A DNA stretch of 52,813 nt, taken from IMG/VR virus record IMGVR_UViG_3300034110_000489, positions 1 to 52,813 of that record. One strand, 5' to 3'. Origin of the DNA: a virus. The translations under genes were made by a program, and so were the position numbers. Below the pieces are notes generated by a model. The model ran no database searches. It was not told the DNA's origin and saw only the letters and a program-made list of their open reading frames with translations. Of this stretch, positions 3,926 through 45,421 are shown in pieces. Within the stretch, counting starts at the first letter, position 1. Every line of letters starts with the position of its first letter.

Positions 3926-3944
3926 CTCGATCAGAGGCGGCCGG

Positions 3945-4586
3945 TCACACGCGCGCCCATACGGCGAGAGTGTGCCAGTTCTTAGCGGTAACTCTCGGTT
4001 CCTTTATCGGTTGAAATCCGGCGGCCTCGATCTGCGAAAACAGATTCGGAGCGGACACGTTTCTCCACTCTTTACGATTGAGATGGATCTCGGCCGCGAT
4101 GTATTGGACCGTCGGCCACTGAGCAATGCGAGCGAGAATCGCGTACTCGCCGCCTTCGGTATCGCATTTCACGGCCTCGGGCGAGTACTGCTCTAGCATC
4201 GTTTCGACGTTGACAGACGGGACGTCGACATACGATCGACCTCTCATCTCGATCGTAGAATGTCCACCTTTGTTTTTCCCTGAGGAGATGTAGAACCGAG
4301 TCGTCTCCTCGTGATGGTCCACCATCGCCGCCGGGATTATTGTCGCTTCAGGCGCGTTGCGGCGGAGAAGTCTCACGTTGTCCGGCTCCGGCTCGAACGA
4401 CACGACTCGCGACGCTCCAGCGTCGAGCAACGTTCGAGACATCGCTCCGATGTTTGCCCCGACATCCCATACGAAAAGGCCGGCGATTCGGCGGGTGAAA
4501 TCTTTGTAGTTCGCTGTTTCTCCTACGACGTACTGATCGAGAGTATCGGTCCTGACTGTCAATCCACGAAACTCGTATTCGTTCAT
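3945..4586 (-). CDS. FkbM-family SAM-dependent methyltransferase, 213 aa
   Basis: Rossmann methyltransferase: SAM motif VWDVGANIGAMSR, acidic end of the second strand SFEPEPDNVRLLRRN, and the FkbM-type VKCDTEGGEYAIL block. FkbM enzymes O-methylate small molecules, glycans or sugars. Here it could cap a sugar on DNA or a surface glycan of virion or host; this is inference from the nearby glycosyltransferase. Codon use is less GC-biased than its neighbours, suggesting later acquisition. Confidence 0.85.
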   Translation of the reverse strand: MNEYEFRGLTVRTDTLDQYVVGETANYKDFTRRIAGLFVWDVGANIGAMSRTLLDAGASRVVSFEPEPDNVRLLRRNAPEATIIPAAMVDHHEETTRFYISSGKNKGGHSTIEMRGRSYVDVPSVNVETMLEQYSPEAVKCDTEGGEYAILARIAQWPTVQYIAAEIHLNRKEWRNVSAPNLFSQIEAAGFQPIKEPRVTAKNWHTLAVWARV

Positions 4587-4598
4587 GGTTTCATCCTT

Positions 4599-5231
4599 TC
4601 ATCGAAATCTGCCGAGTCCGCCGAGGTCGAACGCGTTGCTCTTGCCGAGACCGACCGGGACGAAGTCCGGGATGATCCCGTCGGTGCCGGCGATGCCGAG
4701 CGACGAGATCGCCCATACGAGCGCGTCGAGGCGGTCGGGAGACTCTCCGGACGACTGAGTCCACGTCGTGAGTTGATCTTCGAGGACAGCGAAACCGACG
4801 GCGGATCCGACGTGATGAACTCGACCCTGCTCATACAGTGCGGCGATCGGTTCGGCTCGTGTCCGTTTCCCGACTCTCGCGGTCACTCTCGTGACGGGGA
4901 GTCCGGGGCGAACCGTGCGGAGGACCTGAGTCACGAGGTCGCCGCCTTGATTGCCTTCGGCGATGACTCGGTCGGCCTGCCACTGATCGAACGCCTCGAC
5001 CGCTCGACTCGCCCACTGATCCGGAGTCGGTCGGAGTTCCCGAGGGATCGTGGCATCTTCGAGGACGTACGCGTGTCCTGAGCATCGTTCGGTTCGGCAC
5101 GTCTCCGGGACGTGAGGACCGAGAGCGACGACGACGATCCCGGTCTCGTCGGCGGCGTCGCCTGATGTCACGGCCGGATCGACTCCGACGACGACTCTCG
5201 TGAAATCTCCACGGTCGACGGCGATCACCAT
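4599..5231 (-). CDS. terL: Terminase large subunit, nuclease half, 210 aa
   Basis: RNase H-fold nuclease domain of the packaging motor. The acidic residues typical of TerL nucleases are present: VVVGVDPAVTSG (first Asp), RVIAEGNQGGDLV (Glu) and RLDALVWAISSLG (last Asp). It cleaves concatemeric DNA at initiation and end of packaging. It lacks any ATPase region; that half is encoded separately at 5392-6345, with a 56-codon gene between. The ATG at 5231 overlaps the stop of that small gene. Confidence 0.9.
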   Translation of the reverse strand: MVIAVDRGDFTRVVVGVDPAVTSGDAADETGIVVVALGPHVPETCRTERCSGHAYVLEDATIPRELRPTPDQWASRAVEAFDQWQADRVIAEGNQGGDLVTQVLRTVRPGLPVTRVTARVGKRTRAEPIAALYEQGRVHHVGSAVGFAVLEDQLTTWTQSSGESPDRLDALVWAISSLGIAGTDGIIPDFVPVGLGKSNAFDLGGLGRFR

Positions 5232-5395: not shown

Positions 5396-6345
5396 GAGGA
5401 CCATTCCGCTCGGAGTCGGTCGATCTGATCGAGGGACCATAGGGCGCCTTCGACGTCGGTGAGGAGTTCGCCGTACAGTTCTTGGCGGCCGATCCGGGTC
5501 CCTTCATAGGCGGCGAGGACCTGATCTCGGAACGACGGCGCGAGGTTGACAAGGTTCGCGTACGTCGTGTCGGTCGTGGTCGTGGTCGTGTCGCGCTCCA
5601 TGATCTGCCGGATCAGTTTCACGCGTTTCGGTGTCGTCGTGACGAAACACTTCGGGTCGCGACCGATGCGGAGTCCGAGCATGAGATTATTCCACGACGT
5701 GTCGAGCGAGTCGCCTTTCGTCGCGTCGGGCCATGCGGCCATTTCATCGCACCATGCGGCGTCGTGCTGAGGACCTCGTAACTGAGACGGGGCCGCCGCC
5801 GAATAGGTGAACGCCTGCGCGCCGTTCGGCCACACGAGACGCCGTTTCGTTGGCTCGTGCTCCGGTCGAGGATGAGGATCCGAACACGCCATGATTCCCG
5901 AATCGCCGTAGATCATGACGTCGCGCGCGTCTGCCGGTGTGCGGGCGACGAGAGCGATCCGTTTCGCGCCTTTGTTCCACACTTGGTCGAGGACCCATTC
6001 GGCGCCGGCGCGTGTCTTGCCGGTGCCACGGCCGCCGGAGAACAACCATACGAACCAGTCGTTTTCGGGGGGACGTTGAGCGGCGCGCGCGTGTCGACAC
6101 TCCGGGAGATGATCGGTCGAGTCGATCGGATGATCGCACCAGTGAAACCCTTCGTGCGGAGCGCCATCGCATCCCGGCACGGGACAGTAGAACCGACGTC
6201 GAGGCGCGTTCTCGTGGAGATCGAGGATCCGGAGGACCGATCCGATCTCGTCCGGTGAGAGTCGCGCCAGCATCGAGAACCTCTCCTCCCGACTGAACGA
6301 CTCGGGGGAGATGAGGAAATCGTCGAGCGTCGGAGTCGTGCTCAC
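5392..6345 (-). CDS. terL: Terminase large subunit, ATPase half, 317 aa
   Basis: P-loop motor ATPase: Walker A SGGRGTGKT at about residues 103-111 and Walker B AWCDEM. The chain ends at GELLTDVEGALWSLDQIDRL, the linker that in whole TerL proteins leads into the nuclease. N-terminal to the ATPase is an unusual Cys/His-rich segment (residues 54-85: CPVPGC, HWCDH, CRHAR) that may bind zinc. It pairs with TerS (6342-6809), which overlaps its start by 4 bp. Confidence 0.92.
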   Translation of the reverse strand: MSTTPTLDDFLISPESFSREERFSMLARLSPDEIGSVLRILDLHENAPRRRFYCPVPGCDGAPHEGFHWCDHPIDSTDHLPECRHARAAQRPPENDWFVWLFSGGRGTGKTRAGAEWVLDQVWNKGAKRIALVARTPADARDVMIYGDSGIMACSDPHPRPEHEPTKRRLVWPNGAQAFTYSAAAPSQLRGPQHDAAWCDEMAAWPDATKGDSLDTSWNNLMLGLRIGRDPKCFVTTTPKRVKLIRQIMERDTTTTTTDTTYANLVNLAPSFRDQVLAAYEGTRIGRQELYGELLTDVEGALWSLDQIDRLRAEWSS

Positions 6346-6809
6346 TGCTCCGGCGTGATGTCGTCGGTTCCGAGTCCGAGGGCAGAGGCGAGTCGTGCTT
6401 CGAGATCGACGAGGTCGACTTCAGTCTTGATCGGTCCGCCTTCGGGGCCGCTGATCTCGGTTCGGTTGATTCGTCCCCATCGCTGCGGATGGGATCGTTC
6501 GAGGTACCACGCCGCGGCCTGCCATGTTCCGTCGTTCGCTGCTTTGTTGATGATGCCGGTGTTCCGTACCTCTGCTTGTGCTCGGGCGGTCTCTACTGCC
6601 TCGCGGAACTCGCGGTAGATGGTCTCCGCTTTGAGCGGTTTCTCGCCGGAGTTGACTCGGTCGCGTTCGATGCGGCCTCGTTCCATCCATCGGTAGTAGG
6701 TGCCTTGATCGATGCCGGCGTATGCGGCGGCGGCTTCTTGGTAGTTGCCGGCGGTGAGGGCGGAGAGAATCTTTTCCTTGACCTCGGGAGTGAGTTTCGT
6801 CTTTGCCAT
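6342..6809 (-). CDS. terS: Terminase small subunit-like protein, 155 aa
   Basis: N-terminal helix-turn-helix region (GNYQEAAAAYAGIDQGTYYR followed by WMERG) is the DNA-recognition domain seen in small terminases, followed by helices ending in a WYLERSHPQRWGR motif common in phage TerS. It recognises the packaging site and recruits TerL. Position directly upstream of the ATPase half supports the call. The packaging site itself was not identified. Confidence 0.8.
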   Translation of the reverse strand: MAKTKLTPEVKEKILSALTAGNYQEAAAAYAGIDQGTYYRWMERGRIERDRVNSGEKPLKAETIYREFREAVETARAQAEVRNTGIINKAANDGTWQAAAWYLERSHPQRWGRINRTEISGPEGGPIKTEVDLVDLEARLASALGLGTDDITPEQ

Positions 6810-6843
6810 GAGGTGATGTTACTCCGGTTGAGTGTCGACGGCG

Positions 6844-7800
6844 TCAGCGTGTGCGGCGTGTAATACTCGCTACGGTCTGATCTGCGACGAGTCGAGCGTC
6901 GTGGTTCTTGAGGAAATGATCGGCGGCGGCGAGGCGGTTGGGTGTTGGTCGAGTCACTGCTTCGACGAGTTCGTCGGAGGTGCTCACGATGTCGGCGTAG
7001 TCGGCTAGTGCTCCGGATGGATTCCATTCGGCGTTGAGGATGAGCGAGGCGCCGGCGTCGGCCGCTTCGAGGAACGTGTATTGGGATCCGCCTCCGTCGC
7101 CCTTGATTACGCTCATGTCGACGACGCGTTCGTAAGTTGCTGCGATACGGACTGCGGCCCATAGGTCGTCGGCGGTGAATCGGCCTTTGTAGTTTTCTTT
7201 CCACTCGGGGTCGATCTCGTCGAGTTTGATCTTCCCGTATAGTCCGTTGAGCGCTCCGTAAATGTCGATCGCCTGCTGTAAGACTAGGTTCGCTGCGACT
7301 ATCAGTTCCGTATGTTTGTCGAAGTCGACTCGGGAGATCGAGACCGCCGAGCGTTTCGGTGCTGTCGGTTCGAGCGCTCGGGCGGCGTAAGGATGCGGTA
7401 TGAACGACGCGTGTGGCAAGTGTTGAAGCATCGACTCACGGATTACGATTACGTTCGCTTCGGGCAACGCGCTGCGTAACGGTTCTTTCATTTCTGTGGG
7501 ATCGTGTACAACGATCGAGGCGCCGGCGTCGATCAGGTCGACGGCGAGTTCGTAGTAGGTCTTATCGACTGCCGTGATGAGGACGTCGGAGGATCGCGCT
7601 GTAGCGATGAGGTCATCTCTGTTCACGTTTTGGTATCGGAGTTTTCGACCGAAAGGACGCGTCATCCGTTCGGTTTTGTTCCCGTGTTTGATGATGTGCG
7701 CGTCGTGTCCAGCGCTCCGTAATCCTCGTAGCAGGTGCGCGGTGTAGGTGGGCCATCCGCCGTACTTGGGTTTTGCTAGGTATGCGAGAAAGGTCGTCAC
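6844..7800 (-). CDS. Glycosyltransferase (GT4/GT-B-like), 318 aa
   Basis: N-terminal glycine motif (YGGWPTYTAHLLRGLRSAGH) is that of GT-B acceptor domains, and the C-terminal SQYTFLEAADAGASLIL is the donor-binding E-containing motif of GT4-type enzymes. It transfers a sugar from an activated nucleotide donor. It overlaps the dioxygenase gene upstream by 4 bp, so the two are made together. The most economical idea is that it glycosylates the hydroxymethyl base made by that enzyme; glycosylation of a virion protein is the alternative. Confidence 0.8.
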   Translation of the reverse strand: MTTFLAYLAKPKYGGWPTYTAHLLRGLRSAGHDAHIIKHGNKTERMTRPFGRKLRYQNVNRDDLIATARSSDVLITAVDKTYYELAVDLIDAGASIVVHDPTEMKEPLRSALPEANVIVIRESMLQHLPHASFIPHPYAARALEPTAPKRSAVSISRVDFDKHTELIVAANLVLQQAIDIYGALNGLYGKIKLDEIDPEWKENYKGRFTADDLWAAVRIAATYERVVDMSVIKGDGGGSQYTFLEAADAGASLILNAEWNPSGALADYADIVSTSDELVEAVTRPTPNRLAAADHFLKNHDARLVADQTVASITRRTR

Positions 7801-8639
7801 GACAGGAATCCGGTTTCTCGTTGTCGGTCGAGCATCGTGATCGCTGAGTTCGTGCGGGACTGTCGAGCGTCGGCGAGTTCCTCATCCGGTGGGAGGCAGT
7901 GAGCCATCTTCGCTACTGAGTAGTACACGACCGAGTATCGGTATCCGTCCGGGCGGATGTCGATCGGGGTGACGCCGTGGACAATCTCCGGTCCGGGGAA
8001 CATGACGACGGCGCCGTCTCGACATGGGATCACGACGTCGTACTCGGGTAGGTGGAGATGTCCGCCTCGGGTGTTTCGTCGGACGACGACCATCGCCGAC
8101 CATGCGCCTATTCCGTTGTTTCGGTCTCGGTGATACATGAGGGCGGAGGTTTTGTTCACGATGCCGGAGGTCCACGCGGTGTTGCCGAGGCGCCAGTCGG
8201 GGAGGATCTGTTCGGCGGCTCGTGCTGTCGCTTCAGTGCCGGCGGGGACTCGGTCGGACATCATCGCCCATAGCGTCGACGCTGAGTCGCATAGAAACCG
8301 GTGCGCCTCGGGGGCTTCGTACGATGTCGCGCAGACTCGACAGGATCCACGGGCCTGAATGAACGCCGCTCTCGGGAGGAAACCGATCGTGCGCGCCGTG
8401 TTTCGTTGTCCGGAGGTGCGTAGAACGCTCGTGTTCTGAGGGATGTCGAGGACTGCTCGTCGAAACGCTGCGAGAGAGTCCGCCGGGAACGCGTCGAGGG
8501 CGAGGATCGGTTTCCCGGTGTCAGCGTCGACGAGGAGATCGCCGGGGTCGATCGGTGACGGCTTCAGGTCGGGGGCGTCATCGTTGACGAGTGTCGACGC
8601 CTCATCGGGAGACATCACTCGCGAGACGGTGCGGATCAT
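7797..8639 (-). CDS. TET/JBP-like 2-oxoglutarate Fe(II) dioxygenase, 280 aa
   Basis: The catalytic core has the order expected for the TET/JBP clade: MYHRDRNN supplies the H-x-D Fe ligands (His170, Asp172), RGGHLHLPEYDV forms the barrel strand, MFPGPEIVHGVTP carries the distal His221, and YRYSVVYYS (Arg234, Ser236) fits 2-oxoglutarate binding. Such enzymes oxidise 5-methylcytosine or thymine in DNA. A CRVC pair (100-103) and Cys117 could bind zinc. The start at 8639 is the ATG overlapping the ParB stop (ATGA). No C5 methyltransferase is encoded in the window. Confidence 0.8.
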   Translation of the reverse strand: MIRTVSRVMSPDEASTLVNDDAPDLKPSPIDPGDLLVDADTGKPILALDAFPADSLAAFRRAVLDIPQNTSVLRTSGQRNTARTIGFLPRAAFIQARGSCRVCATSYEAPEAHRFLCDSASTLWAMMSDRVPAGTEATARAAEQILPDWRLGNTAWTSGIVNKTSALMYHRDRNNGIGAWSAMVVVRRNTRGGHLHLPEYDVVIPCRDGAVVMFPGPEIVHGVTPIDIRPDGYRYSVVYYSVAKMAHCLPPDEELADARQSRTNSAITMLDRQRETGFLS

Positions 8640-9292
8640 GCGCCGGGAGGATCCTCGGACATCGCTTCGGCGACGAGGTGGAGGAACAGGTCGGCGAACG
8701 ACGCGCATTTCAGTTTCTCACGCGCACGATCGGCGGCGTCGGTGAGCCATGCGAACTGATCGAGTCGGTAGTCGAGGATGATGGAGCGGACCGCCTTGTC
8801 CCGATAGGCGGCGACGTGCTCGTTCAGGTCTTTGTCTTTCGTGACCTTTGATCCGGAGTCGACGGCGTCGCTCATCGTCGGGATCGCTGTTTCCTGAAGG
8901 AGAGCGTTTAGGTCGTCGAGGTCGTCGACGTCGAAGCCGGTGCCGGTCAGCGTGTCGAGGGAGGCGAGGAGATCCACGAGAGCGCGATCGTCATACGTCG
9001 CGAGGTCGCTCGTCCGGTTATCGGCGAGGAGGATTCGTCGAGCGGTCTCTTCGTCGGCGGTGATCGTTGTGACGAGCATCTCGGACCATCCGAGGGAGCG
9101 GGCGGCGGCGAGGCGGTGAGAGCCGGCGAGAACGGTCCCGTCGGGGAGAGCGACGATCGGGGCGTACTGTCCCGTCGTGCTGAGGCTCTCGGCGATTTCT
9201 TGGACGTTGCCTCGGCGGGGGTTGTCCGGGTGCGGGTGGAGATCGTCGAGGGATCTCATCTCGGTGATCGGGTTCAGGTCAGTGGTGGGCAT
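8636..9292 (-). CDS. ParB-like N-terminal domain protein, 218 aa
   Basis: Residues about 10-110 form a ParB/Srx-like domain: HPHPDNPRRGNVQEIAESL, then GTVLAGSHRLAAARSLGW and the LLADNRTSDLATYDD block typical of phage ParB-like proteins. The C-terminal 100 residues are unlike ParB and carry KVTKDKDLNEHVAAY and a helical end. No parS-reading domain is seen. Members of this group often accompany DNA-modification genes. It directly precedes the dioxygenase. Confidence 0.8.
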   Translation of the reverse strand: MPTTDLNPITEMRSLDDLHPHPDNPRRGNVQEIAESLSTTGQYAPIVALPDGTVLAGSHRLAAARSLGWSEMLVTTITADEETARRILLADNRTSDLATYDDRALVDLLASLDTLTGTGFDVDDLDDLNALLQETAIPTMSDAVDSGSKVTKDKDLNEHVAAYRDKAVRSIILDYRLDQFAWLTDAADRAREKLKCASFADLFLHLVAEAMSEDPPGA

Positions 9293-9316
9293 GACCGGAG
9301 TGTAGCGCCGTCGAGG

Positions 9317-10519
9317 TCAGCGAGGTGGACTCCACGAGCCGGTAGGGAGATCGAGGCGGGAGGCGATCTCGTCGAGAGGTCGGGTCCCGAGTTGGCTCTC
9401 CCATTCGGTGAACGCCGAGGTCGGAACTTTCAGTGTCCAGCGGTCGACCCGGATCCTCGTCTCGGTGGTGACGGTCTGAGACGGGCGTCCCGAGGCGCCG
9501 GCGAGGAGATCGTCGAGGTCGTCCCCATCGAAGCCGGTGCCTCGGAGGTCGGTCGACACGGTGCGGAGGAGGTCGCCGAGGGCGTCGGAGTCGTACGTCG
9601 CGATGTCGGTCGTTCGGTTGTCGACGAGGACGATCCGGCGCGCCTCGATCGGATCGACGTCGACGAACGTAACTGCGATCTCCGACCATCCGAGACGGGC
9701 GGCGGCCTGCCATGTGTGGTTTCCGACGAGGATCTCCCGAGTCGGCCGGTTCACGACGATCGGTCGGTACTGTCCGTGTGTGGCGAGGCTCTCCGCTATG
9801 GCCCCTACGTCGCCTTGTCGGGCGTTGCCGGGATAGGGGACGAGGGAGTCGATCGGGACGGGTTCGGCGGAGATGGTGGAGAGGCGGACCGGGGTCGACT
9901 CCGGGTCGACGCGTCGAGGTCGAGGGCGGGCGGGGAGGTCGAGTCGGCGGCGGAGGCTCTCCTCCGGTTTCAGCGTCGACTGCTCGATCGGTGTCGCCCA
10001 TGACTCGAACGGATCACGCTCGACGATGAGGAGGTGACGACCGACGGCGATCTCGGCGTCGACGATCGGAGCGTCGTCGAAGATGTCCTGACCGTTGCTC
10101 GTCGACAGTGGGGGAGGGTCGGACCATAACCCTTCGAGAGCGTCGAGGTCGTCGGCGGTGTATCCGGTCCCGTCGAGGTCGGGGAGGTCTCGGAGGAGTG
10201 AGGCGAGGAGAGAGTCGTCGTAGGTCGCGAGATCCGAAGCGCGGTTATCGACGAGCACGATCCGGGCCTCGGTGTCGTCGTCGACGTCGACGAACGAGAC
10301 GGCGATCTTTCGCCATCCGAGACGCTTAGCGGCGCGCCAAGTGTGAGTACCGGCGAGGATCCGGGAGGTTCGTCGGTTGGCGACGATCGGTCGGTACTGA
10401 CCGTGGGCGGAGAGCGACTCGGCGATCGCGTCGACGTTGCCGCGTCGCGGGTTGCGCGGGTGCGGGGTCAGTGAGTCGAGCGGAACGGACTCGGTGTCGG
10501 CGATGATCCTCGGAGCCAT
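9317..10519 (-). CDS. Tandem double ParB-like protein, 400 aa
   Basis: Two ParB-like domains in one chain: residues about 10-130 (HPRNPRRGNVDAIAESLSAH, AGTHTWRAAKRLGW, LVDNRASDLATYDD) and about 225-345 (YPGNARQGDVGAIAESLATH, VGNHTWQAAARLGW, LVDNRTTDIATYDS). In both, His is followed by Thr-Trp rather than the Arg found in the single-domain neighbour. With 8636-9292 this makes three related domains in tandem, evidently by duplication. Role unknown; association with base modification is inferred from context. Confidence 0.8.
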   Translation of the reverse strand: MAPRIIADTESVPLDSLTPHPRNPRRGNVDAIAESLSAHGQYRPIVANRRTSRILAGTHTWRAAKRLGWRKIAVSFVDVDDDTEARIVLVDNRASDLATYDDSLLASLLRDLPDLDGTGYTADDLDALEGLWSDPPPLSTSNGQDIFDDAPIVDAEIAVGRHLLIVERDPFESWATPIEQSTLKPEESLRRRLDLPARPRPRRVDPESTPVRLSTISAEPVPIDSLVPYPGNARQGDVGAIAESLATHGQYRPIVVNRPTREILVGNHTWQAAARLGWSEIAVTFVDVDPIEARRIVLVDNRTTDIATYDSDALGDLLRTVSTDLRGTGFDGDDLDDLLAGASGRPSQTVTTETRIRVDRWTLKVPTSAFTEWESQLGTRPLDEIASRLDLPTGSWSPPR

Positions 10520-14296: not shown

Positions 14297-15051
14297 CGAG
14301 AATCATCCTCATACTCAGTTTCCGCTATCGCGCATAGAAGTGAACACTCGAACGAGGCTTCGGTAGCGTGATTTCCCCGAGCGGGATCGAGTTCGTCGAG
14401 AAACAATTTCTCCCCGTCTGATCGCAAGACACTGTTTCCGATGTCTCGTTCAAGTTTCGCCATTCGATCGAATGTCTCGGGGAAGTCGATTCTGATCTTG
14501 TTCCAGTAACCCATTCCACCTTTCGGACATCCGATACAGTTGTTGTTCTGATAACCGAGCGAATACATAACGGGCAGTTCAATTCCTGCGCGTGCGATCA
14601 TGGCGAGGCAGTCGGACTTCGTGAGACCGAAGTCGATTAGGGGCGTGACGAGATCGACTCCGGGATTCTGATCTCTGAATCGTTCGGCTCGATGTCTCTC
14701 CTCGACTGTGTATCCGAAGACCTGTCGATCGGTTGGTTTCTCGAATGAGTAACGAACTTTTTTCTTTAGTTCTGTCGTACATGGAGCGCCGAACGCTGAG
14801 ACGATGAACCGACGTTTCTCCCAAACTTCCCAAGTATCGGTGAACTTCTCTGATTTCAATCGAGTGACGGGATGACCGAACCACTCCTCGCACTGGTCAA
14901 TGAAGCGAACGTTGTCGGGATGCTCACTTCCGGGATCCGTGTACGCGATCACGATCTCGCCGAGGTCCGAAAAGTTTTTCAGTGTCAGTTTTGCGGCCAC
15001 TGCGGACGCGGCTCCGGCACTGAACCATACGAGCGTTCGAGGTTGACTCAT
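14293..15051 (-). CDS. PAPS-reductase/ATP-pyrophosphatase-like protein, 252 aa
   Basis: N-terminal SAGAASAVAAKLTLKNF is the PP-loop of N-type ATP pyrophosphatases; VIAYTDPGSEHPDN and a C-terminal NNCIGCPKGGMGYWNKIR with two cysteines match phage members of the PAPS reductase family. Relatives activate sulfate or add sulfur to nucleic acid (DndC, tRNA thiolases). No DndA, D or E partner is present. The ATG at 15051 overlaps the Rpf stop. Substrate unknown; nucleic-acid modification is possible. Confidence 0.75.
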   Translation of the reverse strand: MSQPRTLVWFSAGAASAVAAKLTLKNFSDLGEIVIAYTDPGSEHPDNVRFIDQCEEWFGHPVTRLKSEKFTDTWEVWEKRRFIVSAFGAPCTTELKKKVRYSFEKPTDRQVFGYTVEERHRAERFRDQNPGVDLVTPLIDFGLTKSDCLAMIARAGIELPVMYSLGYQNNNCIGCPKGGMGYWNKIRIDFPETFDRMAKLERDIGNSVLRSDGEKLFLDELDPARGNHATEASFECSLLCAIAETEYEDDSR

Positions 15052-15620
15052 CGAAGCCATCCGTGACGACGTGAGCATCCCGGCCACGCTCGGTAACCGG
15101 ACGATGCGAGGACACGCTCGGCGACGACGATCTGCTGCTCTCGTGTCGCCTCCCACGGATGAGCGGAGAACTCCCCACCTCCGAACGATGTCCACGTCGA
15201 CCACCTCGGACCGTGAGCGAACTGAAGTCCGCCGCCGTATCCGTTGCCGGTGTTCGCTGACCAGTTGCCGCCGGTCTCGCATTGCGCGAGAACGTCCCAT
15301 CGGTCGGAGGTCGGGGTCGACTCGACCGAGATCGAGGCCGGCTCGACCGGTGCGATCCTCTGAACCGGCGGTGTCGAGACGGTCGTCGTCGCGTTGAGGA
15401 ACGAGAGGTCGATCGTCGTCGACGTTGTCGAGGTCGTCTCCGGCGCGACGGGTGACGAGAGGCGGTCGATCGGGCATCGGTCCGCCCGGTAGATCAGACA
15501 TCCCGGGGAGGTCGTCTCGGTCGACGACGCGTCGGAAAATGCCGAGAGGATGAGGATCATCGCGAGGATCAGGATCAGGACAGCGGCGAACAGCGCTGCG
15601 AGAGGTTTGTTCAGTTTCAT
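15048..15620 (-). CDS. Membrane-anchored Rpf-like transglycosylase, 190 aa
   Basis: An N-terminal hydrophobic helix (ALFAAVLILILAMILILSAF) acts as signal anchor, followed by a Thr/Ser-rich linker and a C-terminal resuscitation-promoting-factor domain: WDVLAQCETGGNW (catalytic Glu) and GYGGGLQFAHGPRW, ending PWEATREQQIVVAERVL. Rpf domains cleave actinobacterial peptidoglycan. It sits among replication and recombination genes, far from the CHAP endolysin at 38.2 kb, which suggests a role other than late lysis. Confidence 0.88.
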   Translation of the reverse strand: MKLNKPLAALFAAVLILILAMILILSAFSDASSTETTSPGCLIYRADRCPIDRLSSPVAPETTSTTSTTIDLSFLNATTTVSTPPVQRIAPVEPASISVESTPTSDRWDVLAQCETGGNWSANTGNGYGGGLQFAHGPRWSTWTSFGGGEFSAHPWEATREQQIVVAERVLASSGYRAWPGCSRRHGWLR

Positions 15621-16000
15621 TCCGGGTTTCCTTCCCACGACCAGCGGCGGAAACCGCGCTCGTGTGCTTCTGTCGGATGAGTTTCGATTCGGTCGTGGCA
15701 GTGCCGGCACACGACGAGGTACTCGGATCGTGATCCGCCGACGATGCGGCCGCCCTGAGACCTCGGGAGGATCTCGTGAACGTCGACAGTGCGAACGGTA
15801 CATCCGTCGTCCCACTGTGCTTCGCAGATTCGGTGTTCGTCGAGCATCCGGGCGACGAGGGCGCGTCGCTCGAGGTACAGTCGGGCGGTCTTCTTTGATC
15901 GTGGGCGGAGCGGTGTCCGGTCGGGACGCCACGGCGTTTTCGCTCGGAGCGGTGTCCGGCGGGTGAGTCCTCGACGGCGCTCGGGGGGCGTGGTGGTCAT
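15617..16000 (-). CDS. HNH endonuclease-like protein, 127 aa
   Basis: Basic N-terminus (RRTPLRAKTPWRPDRTPLRP) then an HNH-type core: CEAQWDDGCT, VDVHEILPRSQGG, and VCRHCHDRIETHP with the second Cys pair. HNH enzymes cut or nick DNA, and many phages place one near terminase or replication genes. Here it lies in the replication operon, so a recombination or packaging-related nick is possible. It overlaps the Rpf gene start. Confidence 0.85.
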   Translation of the reverse strand: MTTTPPERRRGLTRRTPLRAKTPWRPDRTPLRPRSKKTARLYLERRALVARMLDEHRICEAQWDDGCTVRTVDVHEILPRSQGGRIVGGSRSEYLVVCRHCHDRIETHPTEAHERGFRRWSWEGNPE

Positions 16001-16027
16001 GAGAGGCGATCCTAGCGTTACGGAGGG

Positions 16028-16348
16028 TTAGTCCGAGTAGATGGAACGGGGGAGGTCTGTCGGGATGTCCGTCGAGCACACTCGACAGCGCTCGACGGTG
16101 ACCGGGGCATCGGGCGGAGAGATCACTCGGAAACCCTCATCGCATCCGCACGGTCGATTTCCGAGGCGCGCTCCGATGGTCTCCGGATGGTCTCGGATCG
16201 TGCGGAGATAGCGGAGGCAGAGGCGACGGGCGGCCGGCGTGTCGAGCGTCGAGAAGCCGGCGATGACATCGGCGACGGTGTCACGCTGACGCGGGGAGAG
16301 TCGCGGCCATAGGGTCACGACCTCGGAGGCGATCTCGGGATCCGTCAC
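16028..16348 (-). CDS. Hypothetical protein with two Cys pairs, 106 aa
   Basis: The helical N-terminal half (EIASEVVTLWPRLSPRQRDT) is followed by CGCDEGFRV and ERCRVC, suggesting a small zinc ribbon. Its start lies 68 bp inside the 3' end of the helicase-loader gene in another frame, an overlap larger than usual in this genome. Function unknown. Confidence 0.6.
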   Translation of the reverse strand: MTDPEIASEVVTLWPRLSPRQRDTVADVIAGFSTLDTPAARRLCLRYLRTIRDHPETIGARLGNRPCGCDEGFRVISPPDAPVTVERCRVCSTDIPTDLPRSIYSD

Positions 16349-31442: not shown

Positions 31443-31829
31443 TTACAGTGTGAACTTGTCGAGGAGGCCGATCGTGAACTCGGCGCCGAGCGCGCCGGCG
31501 TTCGCTTTCGCAATCGGTGGCAGAGTGATAGCGGAGGAGAGACCCTGAAGATGGTCGCCGAGGTGGTGGTACTGAGCCGACTTCTGCGACAGCGACTCGG
31601 ATAGCGAGAGGTCGCCGACGTTGCGGGCCTGATCTGACTCCCGGGAGAACTTCGCTGCGATGGCACGGGCGGCGCCGACAGCGGCGAGAGGTGCCTCGGA
31701 GTACAGCCCCACGAGATAGGCGATCTCCTCGTCGGTGATGAGAGGGTCGGTCGAGTCAGTGTCAGCGACGAGGAAACGGACGGCGTCGCGATCGTTGGCG
31801 GCCGGGTTCCCTGAGTAGGTCCACGTCAT
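31443..31829 (-). CDS. Head-tail adaptor (connector) protein, 128 aa
   Basis: MTWTYSGNPAANDRDAVRFL, then DPLITDEEIAYLVGLYSEAP and AARAIAAKFSRESDQ: the standard pattern of actinophage head-tail connectors (gp6/gp15-like). Start at 31829 overlaps the stop of the DUF5664 gene (ATGA). Confidence 0.8.
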   Translation of the reverse strand: MTWTYSGNPAANDRDAVRFLVADTDSTDPLITDEEIAYLVGLYSEAPLAAVGAARAIAAKFSRESDQARNVGDLSLSESLSQKSAQYHHLGDHLQGLSSAITLPPIAKANAGALGAEFTIGLLDKFTL

Positions 31830-32215
31830 GTTTTCGACTCCTCCTCGGGCGGCATCCAAAGGCGGCCGCGTGCGAACGTCGGTCGGTCATCGAGACCGGG
31901 GCGGGTAACGGCGAACTCGCGGAGCGTGAAAGCGTGCCACGCGACGGCGTCGAGATGATGAGAGTGTAGTTCAGGATCCTCGTCCTCGCCGTTCCACCAT
32001 GTCCAAAGATGACGGTTCAGAGCGGCGAACGAGATCGACCACGGATAGCCGCGCCGCCAGTTGTGGTCGTCGTATTTGCCGGCGCCTCGGCCGTAATGCT
32101 CTGCCAGCGCGTAGAGAGGGATCTCCGGGATCAGGTCGAAGCGGGCGAGTTTCGTTCCCTTCTCGCCGCCGGTGGTGGGGTCGACATAGCGGACTTCTGC
32201 TCGTCGGTCAGTCAT
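31826..32215 (-). CDS. DUF5664-type dATP/dGTP diphosphohydrolase-like protein, 129 aa
   Basis: ARFDLIPEIPLYALAEHYGR, GAGKYDDHNWRRGYPWSISF, LNRHLWTWWNGEDEDPELHS and HHLDAVAWHAFTLREF follow the DUF5664 consensus, a MazG-like family annotated as dATP/dGTP diphosphohydrolase. It would alter the deoxynucleotide pool. PurZ, which accompanies such enzymes in 2-aminoadenine phages, is absent. It is inserted among connector genes. Confidence 0.78.
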   Translation of the reverse strand: MTDRRAEVRYVDPTTGGEKGTKLARFDLIPEIPLYALAEHYGRGAGKYDDHNWRRGYPWSISFAALNRHLWTWWNGEDEDPELHSHHLDAVAWHAFTLREFAVTRPGLDDRPTFARGRLWMPPEEESKT

Positions 32216-32366
32216 GAGCACCATCCGAGAGGTCTCGGAGGTTGCGAATGAATCGCCGCCATCGTCGAGTGAGGCGATCGTTTCGGAGTTGCTCGTCGAG
32301 GGTCGCGTCGTCGACCTCGCGTCGGAGTGCCTCGTCTCCGGAGTCATGCTCGGGGAGGTCGGTCAT
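32208..32366 (-). CDS. Hypothetical small charged protein, 52 aa
   Basis: MTDLPEHDSGDEALRREVDD then a basic helix LTRRWRRFIRNLRDL. It fills the space between DUF4406 and DUF5664 genes with overlapping ends. Function unknown. Confidence 0.6.
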   Translation of the reverse strand: MTDLPEHDSGDEALRREVDDATLDEQLRNDRLTRRWRRFIRNLRDLSDGAHD

Positions 32367-42851: not shown

Positions 42852-43391
42852 TTACTGAGCCAGTGACGACTTCAACATCCACGCGTGTTTCTGATGAGAC
42901 TCGATCCGCTCCGAAATCAGATTCGCGATTCCCTGCTCATTAGCGGCGGACGCGATCTCGAACGTCGAGTTGAGCGACACGAGAACGGCCATGTTCCCGA
43001 CGTGGAGATCGGCGGACATCTCCGCGGGCATCGGCGAGGAGACCGGGACGTCGACGATCGAGCGAAGCGCCATGATGTCCGGCAGTCGGAACGGAGCCAT
43101 GCCGTCGAGCGCGCGGATGCTCTCCGCTATCGGATCGACACTCGACTCGACATCCTCGTAGATGGATCCGTACAGAGCGTGATACTCGGCGAAGTCGGAT
43201 CCGATCACGTTCCAGTGGTAACCGTGTGCTCGAAGCGAAAACGAAATCACGTCGGCGAGGAGACGTCGAAGCGACGAGACCAGCATCGGACGCGCCTCGT
43301 CGAGATCGTGTTCGGCCTTCGCCAGTGGAGCGGCGACAGTGCGAAACGCGACCGGGGTCGCGTCATGGTTGCGGGAAATGTGAACGGTCAT
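42852..43391 (-). CDS. dps: Dps-like ferritin, 179 aa
   Basis: Ferroxidase signature: RAHGYHWNVIGSDFAEYHAL, GSIYEDVESSVDPIAESIRA supply the two His, Asp and Glu of the inter-subunit site, and the length fits a Dps monomer. Dps forms 12-mers that bind DNA and detoxify iron and peroxide. The gene overlaps the XkdF-like protease gene (ATGA), so it is coexpressed with head assembly and could even be co-packaged; that is inference. Confidence 0.9.
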   Translation of the reverse strand: MTVHISRNHDATPVAFRTVAAPLAKAEHDLDEARPMLVSSLRRLLADVISFSLRAHGYHWNVIGSDFAEYHALYGSIYEDVESSVDPIAESIRALDGMAPFRLPDIMALRSIVDVPVSSPMPAEMSADLHVGNMAVLVSLNSTFEIASAANEQGIANLISERIESHQKHAWMLKSSLAQ

Positions 43392-45421
43392 ACGTTGCCT
43401 TCCGAGGGTAGATCGACGGTCACGCGTTGACCGGCTCCGCCCATAGAGTAGCCGCGGATCTTTCCCGCTTTCACGAGGTCCCACGCCCACGACTCCCAAA
43501 CGACGCCCATGAACACGGTTCCCGGTGGGAACTCCTGCTCGACAGTGAGTCCGGATCCGGCGTCGATCATCGGAACCGACACGGCGTACGGCCATGTCAG
43601 AGCCTCGACCCATTCGCCGGCGACGATCTCGACGTCGTGCTGAAGTCGGATCTGTCGGTCGCCCTTGCGGACATAATCCCATAGCGCCGACTGAAGTTCT
43701 GTCGAGTCGGTCCATTCGCCGTGCGCGTCGTACGAGTCCGGGACGTACCACGGTCCGAGAGTGAAACGACGTTCCTCCGCCTTAGCGAACACGGACGGGA
43801 TCGAGCGTTCGAGAGCGCCGATCTCGGTGAGGGTGCCGACACGGTGTCCGACGCGTCGATCGGTGGGGCGCCATCCCTCCGACGTCTCCTCCCATAACCG
43901 AATGAGAGCGGCGGGGTCATCCTCGGACGCGTCGATCGTGAACGATGAGTCGGGGACAGCGATCGGACGATCCGTCGAGATCCGCTCGACCTGACCTCGA
44001 CCTCGACCTCCGGACGATCCCCAAGAAACATACGAGCCGACTCCGATCCGTTTCGACATCATGCCGGCCGGGGAGACCAGTCGACGCCGAGAGCGTCCGC
44101 CGGATCCCATCGGAACTTCGACGTGGACATCGGAGACCGACGGCGATCCCTTGTCGATCCCGTCGAGGATGCCACGAGTCCACGAGACGGCGGGGTCTCC
44201 TCCCCAAGCGGCCCACGCGACGCGACCCGGCGACGGGTATCCCGGCTCTCCGGGCGACCATCCTTCGCCCTGCTTGTCGGCCTCGTGACGAGCAAGGTAC
44301 GAGGAGATCCGCTCCACGGTGTCGAGCGAGACGGGGTTTCCGGCGGCGAGGTCAGAGGCGCGACGTCGGCCGGTCGGAGTGAATCCGTCTCCGGCGTGAC
44401 CCTCGGCGATCCATGCCTCGGCCCGTGCGGCCTCCTCGCGGACTCCGGCGGGAGGCTCGAACGTGTCGGCCTTAGCGAAACGCTCGACCTCGGCGAGACG
44501 TGCCTCGGCCTCGGCGCGAGTGTCGTACGTGCCGAATGATCGACTGCCATCGGCGGACGTCACACGAAACCGACCGTCGACCTCGACGACCTCCTTCGAC
44601 ATCGTCTCGACGATCTGAAGTCGCTCCGGAATCACCCATAGTTTACAGATTCCTTCGGGAGCGATGGATCCCTCGACCCAATAGCACCCGCCGACCTCGG
44701 GGCAATAGGCTACGCAGTTGTAGCAGGCGAGACCCTCGTCGACGAACGGCGACTCGTCGATGTAGTGGGCGTCGGACTGTCGGAAGCATCCGAGCGCGTC
44801 GACGATGAGATCGTGAGCCTCGGCCAGTGCGGCGGATCGGAGAGTCAGGTCGCCGAGTTGGCTCTCGTGCTCGTGCTCGGAGTCGTGGGCCATCGGATCG
44901 GCGCCGTACTCGGACATCAGGTCTTTCGCCATCGGGGACGGGATGAACAGGCGAGGCGCCAGCGCTCCGACGCGTTGCCGGTTGTCGGAGGTCGACGCGT
45001 TGCCAGTGTCGACCGAGAGCGCTTTCCCGAACACTGTCCGGAGACGATCGAGGAGACCGAGGAGACCGCCGCGATCCTCGTCGTCGTCGTCGTCGTCGTG
45101 ATGCTCTTTCTCGGTGTCGTAGTTGCCGGCCTCGATCTCGGTCTCGTAGGACATCTCCATTTCGTCGACGTGGTAGTCCGTCTCGATCTTGGTCGACTCC
45201 TCGTCCTCGGACTCGGTGTCCTCCGGATCCTCGACGGTGCCAGTCGGAGCGATCACGAGTCGGTATCCGCTCTCGTCGACGATGGTCGCGATGTCGGCGA
45301 CAGTCATCCCGGACGCGATGAGTTCCTCAGCGGTAACGCGGATGTCCTCGGGCATTCCGTCTTTCGTGAGACGGTCGAGGGGAACGGCGCGGATGATGTC
45401 GACGATTCGTGTTTCGGTCAT
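43388..45421 (-). CDS. XkdF-like phage protein (putative prohead protease), 677 aa
   Basis: The C-terminal part (about residues 530-670: FTLGPWYVPDSYDAHGEWTD, ALTWPYAVSVPMIDAG, WAWDLVKAGKIRGYSMGG) is XkdF-like, a predicted phage serine protease. The N-terminal part is acidic with an Asp run (about 109-115). In between is a cysteine cluster (233, 236, 240, 246, 259) in a CYNCVAYCPEVGGC context, like a ferredoxin or zinc ribbon. It should mature the head; the middle region has no obvious role in that. Confidence 0.8.
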   Translation of the reverse strand: MTETRIVDIIRAVPLDRLTKDGMPEDIRVTAEELIASGMTVADIATIVDESGYRLVIAPTGTVEDPEDTESEDEESTKIETDYHVDEMEMSYETEIEAGNYDTEKEHHDDDDDDEDRGGLLGLLDRLRTVFGKALSVDTGNASTSDNRQRVGALAPRLFIPSPMAKDLMSEYGADPMAHDSEHEHESQLGDLTLRSAALAEAHDLIVDALGCFRQSDAHYIDESPFVDEGLACYNCVAYCPEVGGCYWVEGSIAPEGICKLWVIPERLQIVETMSKEVVEVDGRFRVTSADGSRSFGTYDTRAEAEARLAEVERFAKADTFEPPAGVREEAARAEAWIAEGHAGDGFTPTGRRRASDLAAGNPVSLDTVERISSYLARHEADKQGEGWSPGEPGYPSPGRVAWAAWGGDPAVSWTRGILDGIDKGSPSVSDVHVEVPMGSGGRSRRRLVSPAGMMSKRIGVGSYVSWGSSGGRGRGQVERISTDRPIAVPDSSFTIDASEDDPAALIRLWEETSEGWRPTDRRVGHRVGTLTEIGALERSIPSVFAKAEERRFTLGPWYVPDSYDAHGEWTDSTELQSALWDYVRKGDRQIRLQHDVEIVAGEWVEALTWPYAVSVPMIDAGSGLTVEQEFPPGTVFMGVVWESWAWDLVKAGKIRGYSMGGAGQRVTVDLPSEGNV

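Follow-up and report, generated by a model that had tools for sequence, protein, structure and literature searches.

A predicted thymine hypermodification island with an exchangeable glycosyltransferase cassette in an uncultured phage

We analysed a stretch of 52,813 nucleotides from an uncultured virus (IMG/VR record IMGVR_UViG_3300034110_000489, positions 1-52,813, one strand), a linear record that is possibly a fragment; this whole stretch is called the window below. Its minus strand carries two genes for ParB-like proteins, a TET/JBP 2-oxoglutarate dioxygenase (TET) and a glycosyltransferase (GT), followed by the terminase genes and an FkbM-family methyltransferase. From 5' to 3' on that strand the features are:

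9317..10519, minus strand: ParB-like protein of 400 amino acids (aa) with two ParB_N domains (Pfam ParB_N, 4.1e-15, two stretches; PHROG 8071, 1.9e-106)
8636..9292, minus strand: ParB-like protein of 218 aa with the third ParB domain (PHROG 723, 5e-40; Pfam, 0.013)
7797..8639, minus strand: TET/JBP 2-oxoglutarate dioxygenase, 280 aa from its ATG (Pfam Tet_JBP, PHROG 6059, catalytic residues, structure model)
6844..7800, minus strand: GT of GT-B fold, GT4-like, of an unnamed family (structure model, conserved residues)
6834..7792, minus strand: exchangeable tailoring cassette (blastn against the related contig L012: flanks 96-98% identical, block unmatched)
6342..6809, minus strand: terminase small subunit, directly 3' of the GT (PHROG 4102, 1.9e-39; 98% identical in L012)
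6345-5392 (ATPase) and 5231-4599 (nuclease), minus strand: terminase large subunit, in two pieces
3945..4586, minus strand: FkbM-family methyltransferase of 213 aa (Pfam Methyltransf_21, 1.3e-13; NCBIfam TIGR01444, 1.2e-20)

A preliminary description of this DNA had placed three ParB-like domains, TET and GT beside the terminase genes, with TET translationally coupled to the ParB gene upstream and to a GT-B glycosyltransferase downstream. All of these are in place, and the terminase small subunit follows the GT. The stop codon of the 218-aa ParB gene and the start of TET overlap as ATGA, and the stop of TET and the start of GT as GTGA, both over 4 bp. These overlaps are direct sequence evidence that ParB, TET and GT form an operon with coupled translation. 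The 400-aa protein also matches, through its N-terminal ParB part, PHROG 498, a ParB-DNA methyltransferase family (1.1e-57).

The dioxygenase belongs to the TET/JBP family by profile, residue order and fold. Pfam Tet_JBP matches it with an E value of 5.8e-6, a score that falls short of the Pfam curated cut-off; the TET of phage Nigel scores alike (4.3e-6), and PHROG 6059 matches the window protein at 2.6e-63. The HxD pair H170 and D172, the distal H221 and the 2-oxoglutarate-binding R234 (alignment numbers minus 3), which had been read earlier as standing in TET/JBP order, do not vary among the 45 aligned sequences. The 26 best PDB matches of the AlphaFold model (pLDDT 92.5) all belong to TET-family DNA dioxygenases (CMD1, CcTet, TET2 and NgTet1), with AlkB next. 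A placement among the 2-oxoglutarate oxygenases that do not act on nucleic acids, which would have told against the preliminary description, is ruled out by this search. Among solved structures, a profile of 17 relatives matches Naegleria Tet, CMD1 and TET2 best, though weakly. In the TET tree the window sits, with moderate support, at the base of a clade of actinophage and GT-linked sequences. At residue 175, three positions beyond the Asp of HxD, the window clade has Asn and seven distant TET sequences have Asp, their clade including HTVC112P, P12024L and our survey loci L006, L015, L020 and L092; this residue might track the substrate.

PHROG 6059 and many phage records carry the label "queuine tRNA-ribosyltransferase", which we dropped for the window protein in view of its profile, residues and fold. 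The family is so annotated, or as "DpdA-like", in NC_011044.1 and many other actinophage records, and the P-loop kinase adjoining TET in phage Nigel is annotated as "terminase small subunit"; both kinds of label look like annotation errors.

A tblastn search of 50,697 phage records found nothing that matches the GT, and no profile from Pfam, NCBIfam or PHROG reached threshold with it. Its model (pLDDT 88) has a GT-B fold of GT4 type, and its PDB matches are GT4 enzymes. T4 DNA alpha-glucosyltransferase is among the fold matches at rank 42 (Foldseek E 5e-9, TM score 0.69, about 12% identity), and two glycosyltransferases of Bacillus phage SP-15 are structural neighbours. R157, K162 and E245 are kept in at least 72 of 74 distinct homologues, at positions that we take to be those expected for the GT4 donor site (donor-site Arg and Lys, catalytic Glu), so that fold and residues together mark a GT4-like enzyme. 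Of the classical E-x7-E motif, the first Glu has given way to another residue, with an invariant Asp235 nearby. From the fold we predict a retaining enzyme with an alpha-linked product. The GT is distinct from TAGT (PF20691), the known TET-associated glycosyltransferase family, since no TAGT profile match occurs in the contig and the model is GT-B, whereas TAGT has a GT-A fold (PMC13216743).

Where do its relatives lie? A scan of viral contigs found them in 86 of the 87 loci examined. By local hidden Markov models (HMMs), 33 loci carry TET, 39 carry HMUDK_hel and/or a thymidylate synthase (TS) homologue, 15 carry neither and none carries both. The 33 include L012, where TET stands with another GT, and the distant L034, whose TET match is doubtful. 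The absence of overlap would have p ~1e-12 if the loci were independent; the figure is descriptive only, since certain contigs enter the set twice and as few as two context changes would be enough on the GT tree. The context HMMs were built locally from seeds out of the same data, so that all partner counts given here are biased towards the seeded families, and some viral loci in the survey are incomplete or duplicated. Because GT homologues sit either with TET or with HMUDK_hel/TS homologues, never with both, the family tracks a 5-hydroxymethyl-pyrimidine made by either route and would act on it. In all 32 TS homologues that could be read at the base-recognition position, the residue is the TS-type Asn, not the Asp of the cytosine-specific MilA, and this points to the uracil/thymine series for that route. 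TS beside a pyrophosphorylase partner has been published as an arrangement for thymidine hypermodification (PMC9599517).

L012, a 5.3-kb contig from a near-identical phage, matches the window by blastn at 96-98% DNA identity over its whole length, except in two blocks. In the first, window positions 6834-7792 (the GT) are replaced by 1,352 bp that encode a TAGT-like glycosyltransferase (Pfam 0.029, a weak match) and a Ploopntkinase3 kinase (3.5e-35). In the second, the block at 3944-4610 (FkbM) is precisely absent. GC is 0.579 in the GT block, 0.553 in the FkbM block and 0.63-0.64 in the flanks, and the TET common to both contigs is 97% identical over 139 aa. The comparison of the two contigs points to an oxidising core that stays fixed and a tailoring step that is swapped as one cassette; it also makes the partner of TET in L012 a predicted 5-hydroxymethyluracil (5hmU) DNA kinase. 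Since FkbM is missing from the very contig in which another cassette takes the place of the GT, it may belong to the GT branch, possibly as a sugar O-methyltransferase. Elsewhere FkbM follows TET or TAGT, or lies near the window's GT family; a scan with the window FkbM protein itself found no relatives.

To explain these results we propose a post-replicative thymine hypermodification island, in which thymine is converted to 5hmU and then to glycosyl-5hmU, possibly O-methylated; we put the probability of this reading at about 0.68. The ParB-like proteins would bring the enzymes to phage DNA or direct them there. TET, an enzyme whose class is given by sequence and fold, would hydroxylate thymine in DNA at its methyl group, yielding 5hmU. 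The GT, as its fold and its genomic linkage suggest, would then add a sugar from a host nucleotide-sugar to the 5hmU hydroxyl. FkbM may O-methylate that sugar, to judge from one presence/absence pair and from what is known of its family. By analogy with other systems, DNA modified in this way would resist host restriction.

The preliminary description had left the substrate as thymine or host-made 5-methylcytosine (5mC), and partner genes of related TETs speak for the first. Around the best 80 of 561 confirmed viral TET loci, ParB and TET are mostly followed by TAGT (35), Ploopntkinase3 (35), the amino acid:DNA transferase ADDT (26) or the window's GT family (3), in combinations; eight of these loci have no recognised partner. 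Cultured actinophage relatives have the same partner set, ADDT plus kinase included: in phage Kharcho TET is joined by a kinase, and in Gordonia phage Wooper by ADDT and a kinase. On these grounds thymine is quite probably the substrate rather than cytosine, because the neighbours are kinases and ADDT, rarely a C5-cytosine methyltransferase, and the contig has no detectable DNA methylase. L012 supports the same choice, because there a near-identical TET pairs with Ploopntkinase3, a kinase family predicted to act on 5hmU.

The strongest competing explanation keeps the enzymes and changes the base: the dioxygenase would oxidise 5mC laid down by a host C5 methylase, or by one encoded outside the contig, and the GT would glycosylate 5-hydroxymethylcytosine (5hmC). 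All solved close fold matches of the dioxygenase are indeed 5mC oxidases, though no JBP structure is among them, and C5 methylases do lie near a few related loci. Within 6 kb of TET they were detected in only 3 of the best 80 loci, each time beside ADDT and a kinase, as against the 35 and 26 loci with the thymine-pathway partners Ploopntkinase3 and ADDT. Six-frame searches of the 52.8 kb found no C5 or N4/N6 DNA methylase, TS, TAGT or Ploopntkinase3. They bear out the earlier remark that no C5-cytosine methyltransferase is visible and rule out an encoded DNA methylase for this contig; if the contig is a fragment, a methylase could lie beyond it. The FkbM-type enzyme at 3945-4586 is not a DNA C5 methylase. 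Moreover, host methylation would offer sparse substrate sites. We retain host 5mC as an unlikely alternative.

Less likely still, the GT and FkbM could have a target other than DNA (capsid, tail or a host surface glycan) and simply lie in a hot spot by the terminase, with TET by itself producing 5hmU. In favour of this, the GT has a generic fold of the GT4 kind, family members occur in archaeal contigs without TET, and the slot is an exchangeable cassette of lower GC. Against this, the GT is coupled to TET by 4 bp, about 30 other loci pair its family with TET, and what replaces it in L012 is a TET-associated glycosyltransferase with a kinase. That the genes are decayed or residual and the system no longer works is very improbable: set against the sub-threshold Pfam score of TET are open frames of full length whose starts and stops overlap, catalytic residues that are all intact, confident structure models, and many relatives in which the sequences are conserved.

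Several points weigh against the thymine island itself. The chemistry of the island and of its GT family is read from sequences and structure models, and in these actinophages the 5hmU DNA kinase activity of Ploopntkinase3 is likewise a prediction. No group is placed as sister to the window TET with support of 95% or more. TET2 has Asn at the position of residue 175, and both Asn and Asp are found in proven 5mC oxidases, so we do not use this residue as proof of thymine over 5mC. The link of FkbM to the GT comes from a single pair of genomes. Finally, six Nitrososphaerales/thaumarchaeal contigs (L102-L107) hold GT-family members (29-33% identity) with no TET, HMUDK or TS neighbours detected, and for this reason not every member of the family need act on DNA.

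How does the island compare with known systems? In Rhodococcus phage Tonitrus, a ParB-TET core followed by ADDT and/or a predicted 5hmU DNA kinase has been described as a thymidine-hypermodification system (PMC11955845), and the same core in Gordonia phage CaiB as a nucleotide-modification block (PMC9302106). A self-contained thymine route in a phage, which the preliminary description took to be new, had thus already been proposed in print. These islands (Tonitrus, CaiB/Wooper, mycobacteriophages Prince and Nigel) share with the window a ParB-like gene, a TET/JBP protein about 40% identical, short gene overlaps, a position close before the terminase and the lack of a DNA methyltransferase in the island. 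Downstream of TET they have ADDT and/or a P-loop kinase, whereas the window has the GT4-like GT and FkbM; Ploopntkinase3 is absent from the contig and its slot is taken by the GT, ADDT not having been searched for there. By contrast with TET systems that act on phage-made 5mC, the contig, which may be incomplete, encodes no C5-cytosine methyltransferase.

Arthrobacter phage Bolt007 has ParB, TET, TAGT and a PIG-L deacetylase and no methyltransferase in the island. It shares with Nonlabens phage P12024L and with the window a glycosyltransferase directly after TET/JBP, but TAGT is unrelated in sequence to the window GT. The survey loci L112, L182 and L185 hold ParB-TET-TAGT-PIG-L-like-kinase islands, which suggests a decoration with a deacetylated amino sugar.

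The kinetoplastid base J pathway (JBP1/2 and J-glucosyltransferase) likewise hydroxylates thymine in DNA with a TET/JBP enzyme and then glycosylates it (PMC6449724). It is eukaryotic, does not involve ParB, and adds beta-glucose with another glucosyltransferase, whereas the GT4-like fold in the window predicts alpha. Thus, the earlier term "base-J-like" holds in outline, hydroxylation followed by a sugar, but probably not for the linkage. Phage thymidine-hypermodification clusters of the M6 and ViI type are linked to the window by the 39 loci that join its GT family to TS-like and/or HMUDK_hel genes; they make 5-hydroxymethyldeoxyuridine as a nucleotide before replication, with a deoxyuridine monophosphate hydroxymethylase, where the window has TET acting in DNA. 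SP-15 also decorates a thymine derivative with sugar (glucosylated dihydroxypentyluracil; PMC5977210), but with another base side chain, a hydroxymethyldeoxyuridine synthase route and a large carbohydrate gene cluster. T4 alpha-glucosyltransferase, a GT-B DNA glycosyltransferase too, differs in acting on 5hmC from a nucleotide-level route.

A broader proposal, for which we see the odds as even, is that the phage DNA glycosyltransferases of this unnamed GT4-like family make alpha-glycosyl-5hmU, its sugar possibly O-methylated by FkbM, and serve two independent 5hmU routes (TET/JBP in DNA, the TS homologue at the nucleotide level), giving a phage counterpart of base J through a swappable cassette. 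What was already known is the proposed self-contained ParB-TET thymine route and a phage with ParB, TET and a glycosyltransferase, Bolt007. The novelty lies in the GT4-like family, in its association with either TET or TS/HMUDK, and in the cassette swap; we found nothing later on these points in the literature searched, most subscription journals lying outside that search.

Elsewhere in the window (GC 62.5%), a resuscitation-promoting-factor-like transglycosylase domain (PF06737) lies at 15048-16079. This domain is typical of actinobacteria and their phages, and for this reason the host is probably an actinobacterium. Megablast of the first 25 kb against the 50,697 phage records gave no match. 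At 31826-32347 and 42852-43751 are a dATP/dGTP diphosphohydrolase N-terminal domain (PF18909) and a ferritin-like/Dps protein. In the terminase large subunit, an open frame of about 56 aa lies between the ATPase and nuclease frames and is joined to them by ATGA-type overlaps. A sequencing error is unlikely, because L012 has the same split; L006 has a single frame.

The island brings to light a putative DNA-glycosyltransferase family linked to two ways of making 5hmU, and a pair of near-identical phages that differ in their tailoring cassette but share the oxidising core. If the proposed chemistry is true, phages would have base-J-like nucleosides of their own, and 5hmU in DNA could be tagged with a GT4-type enzyme.

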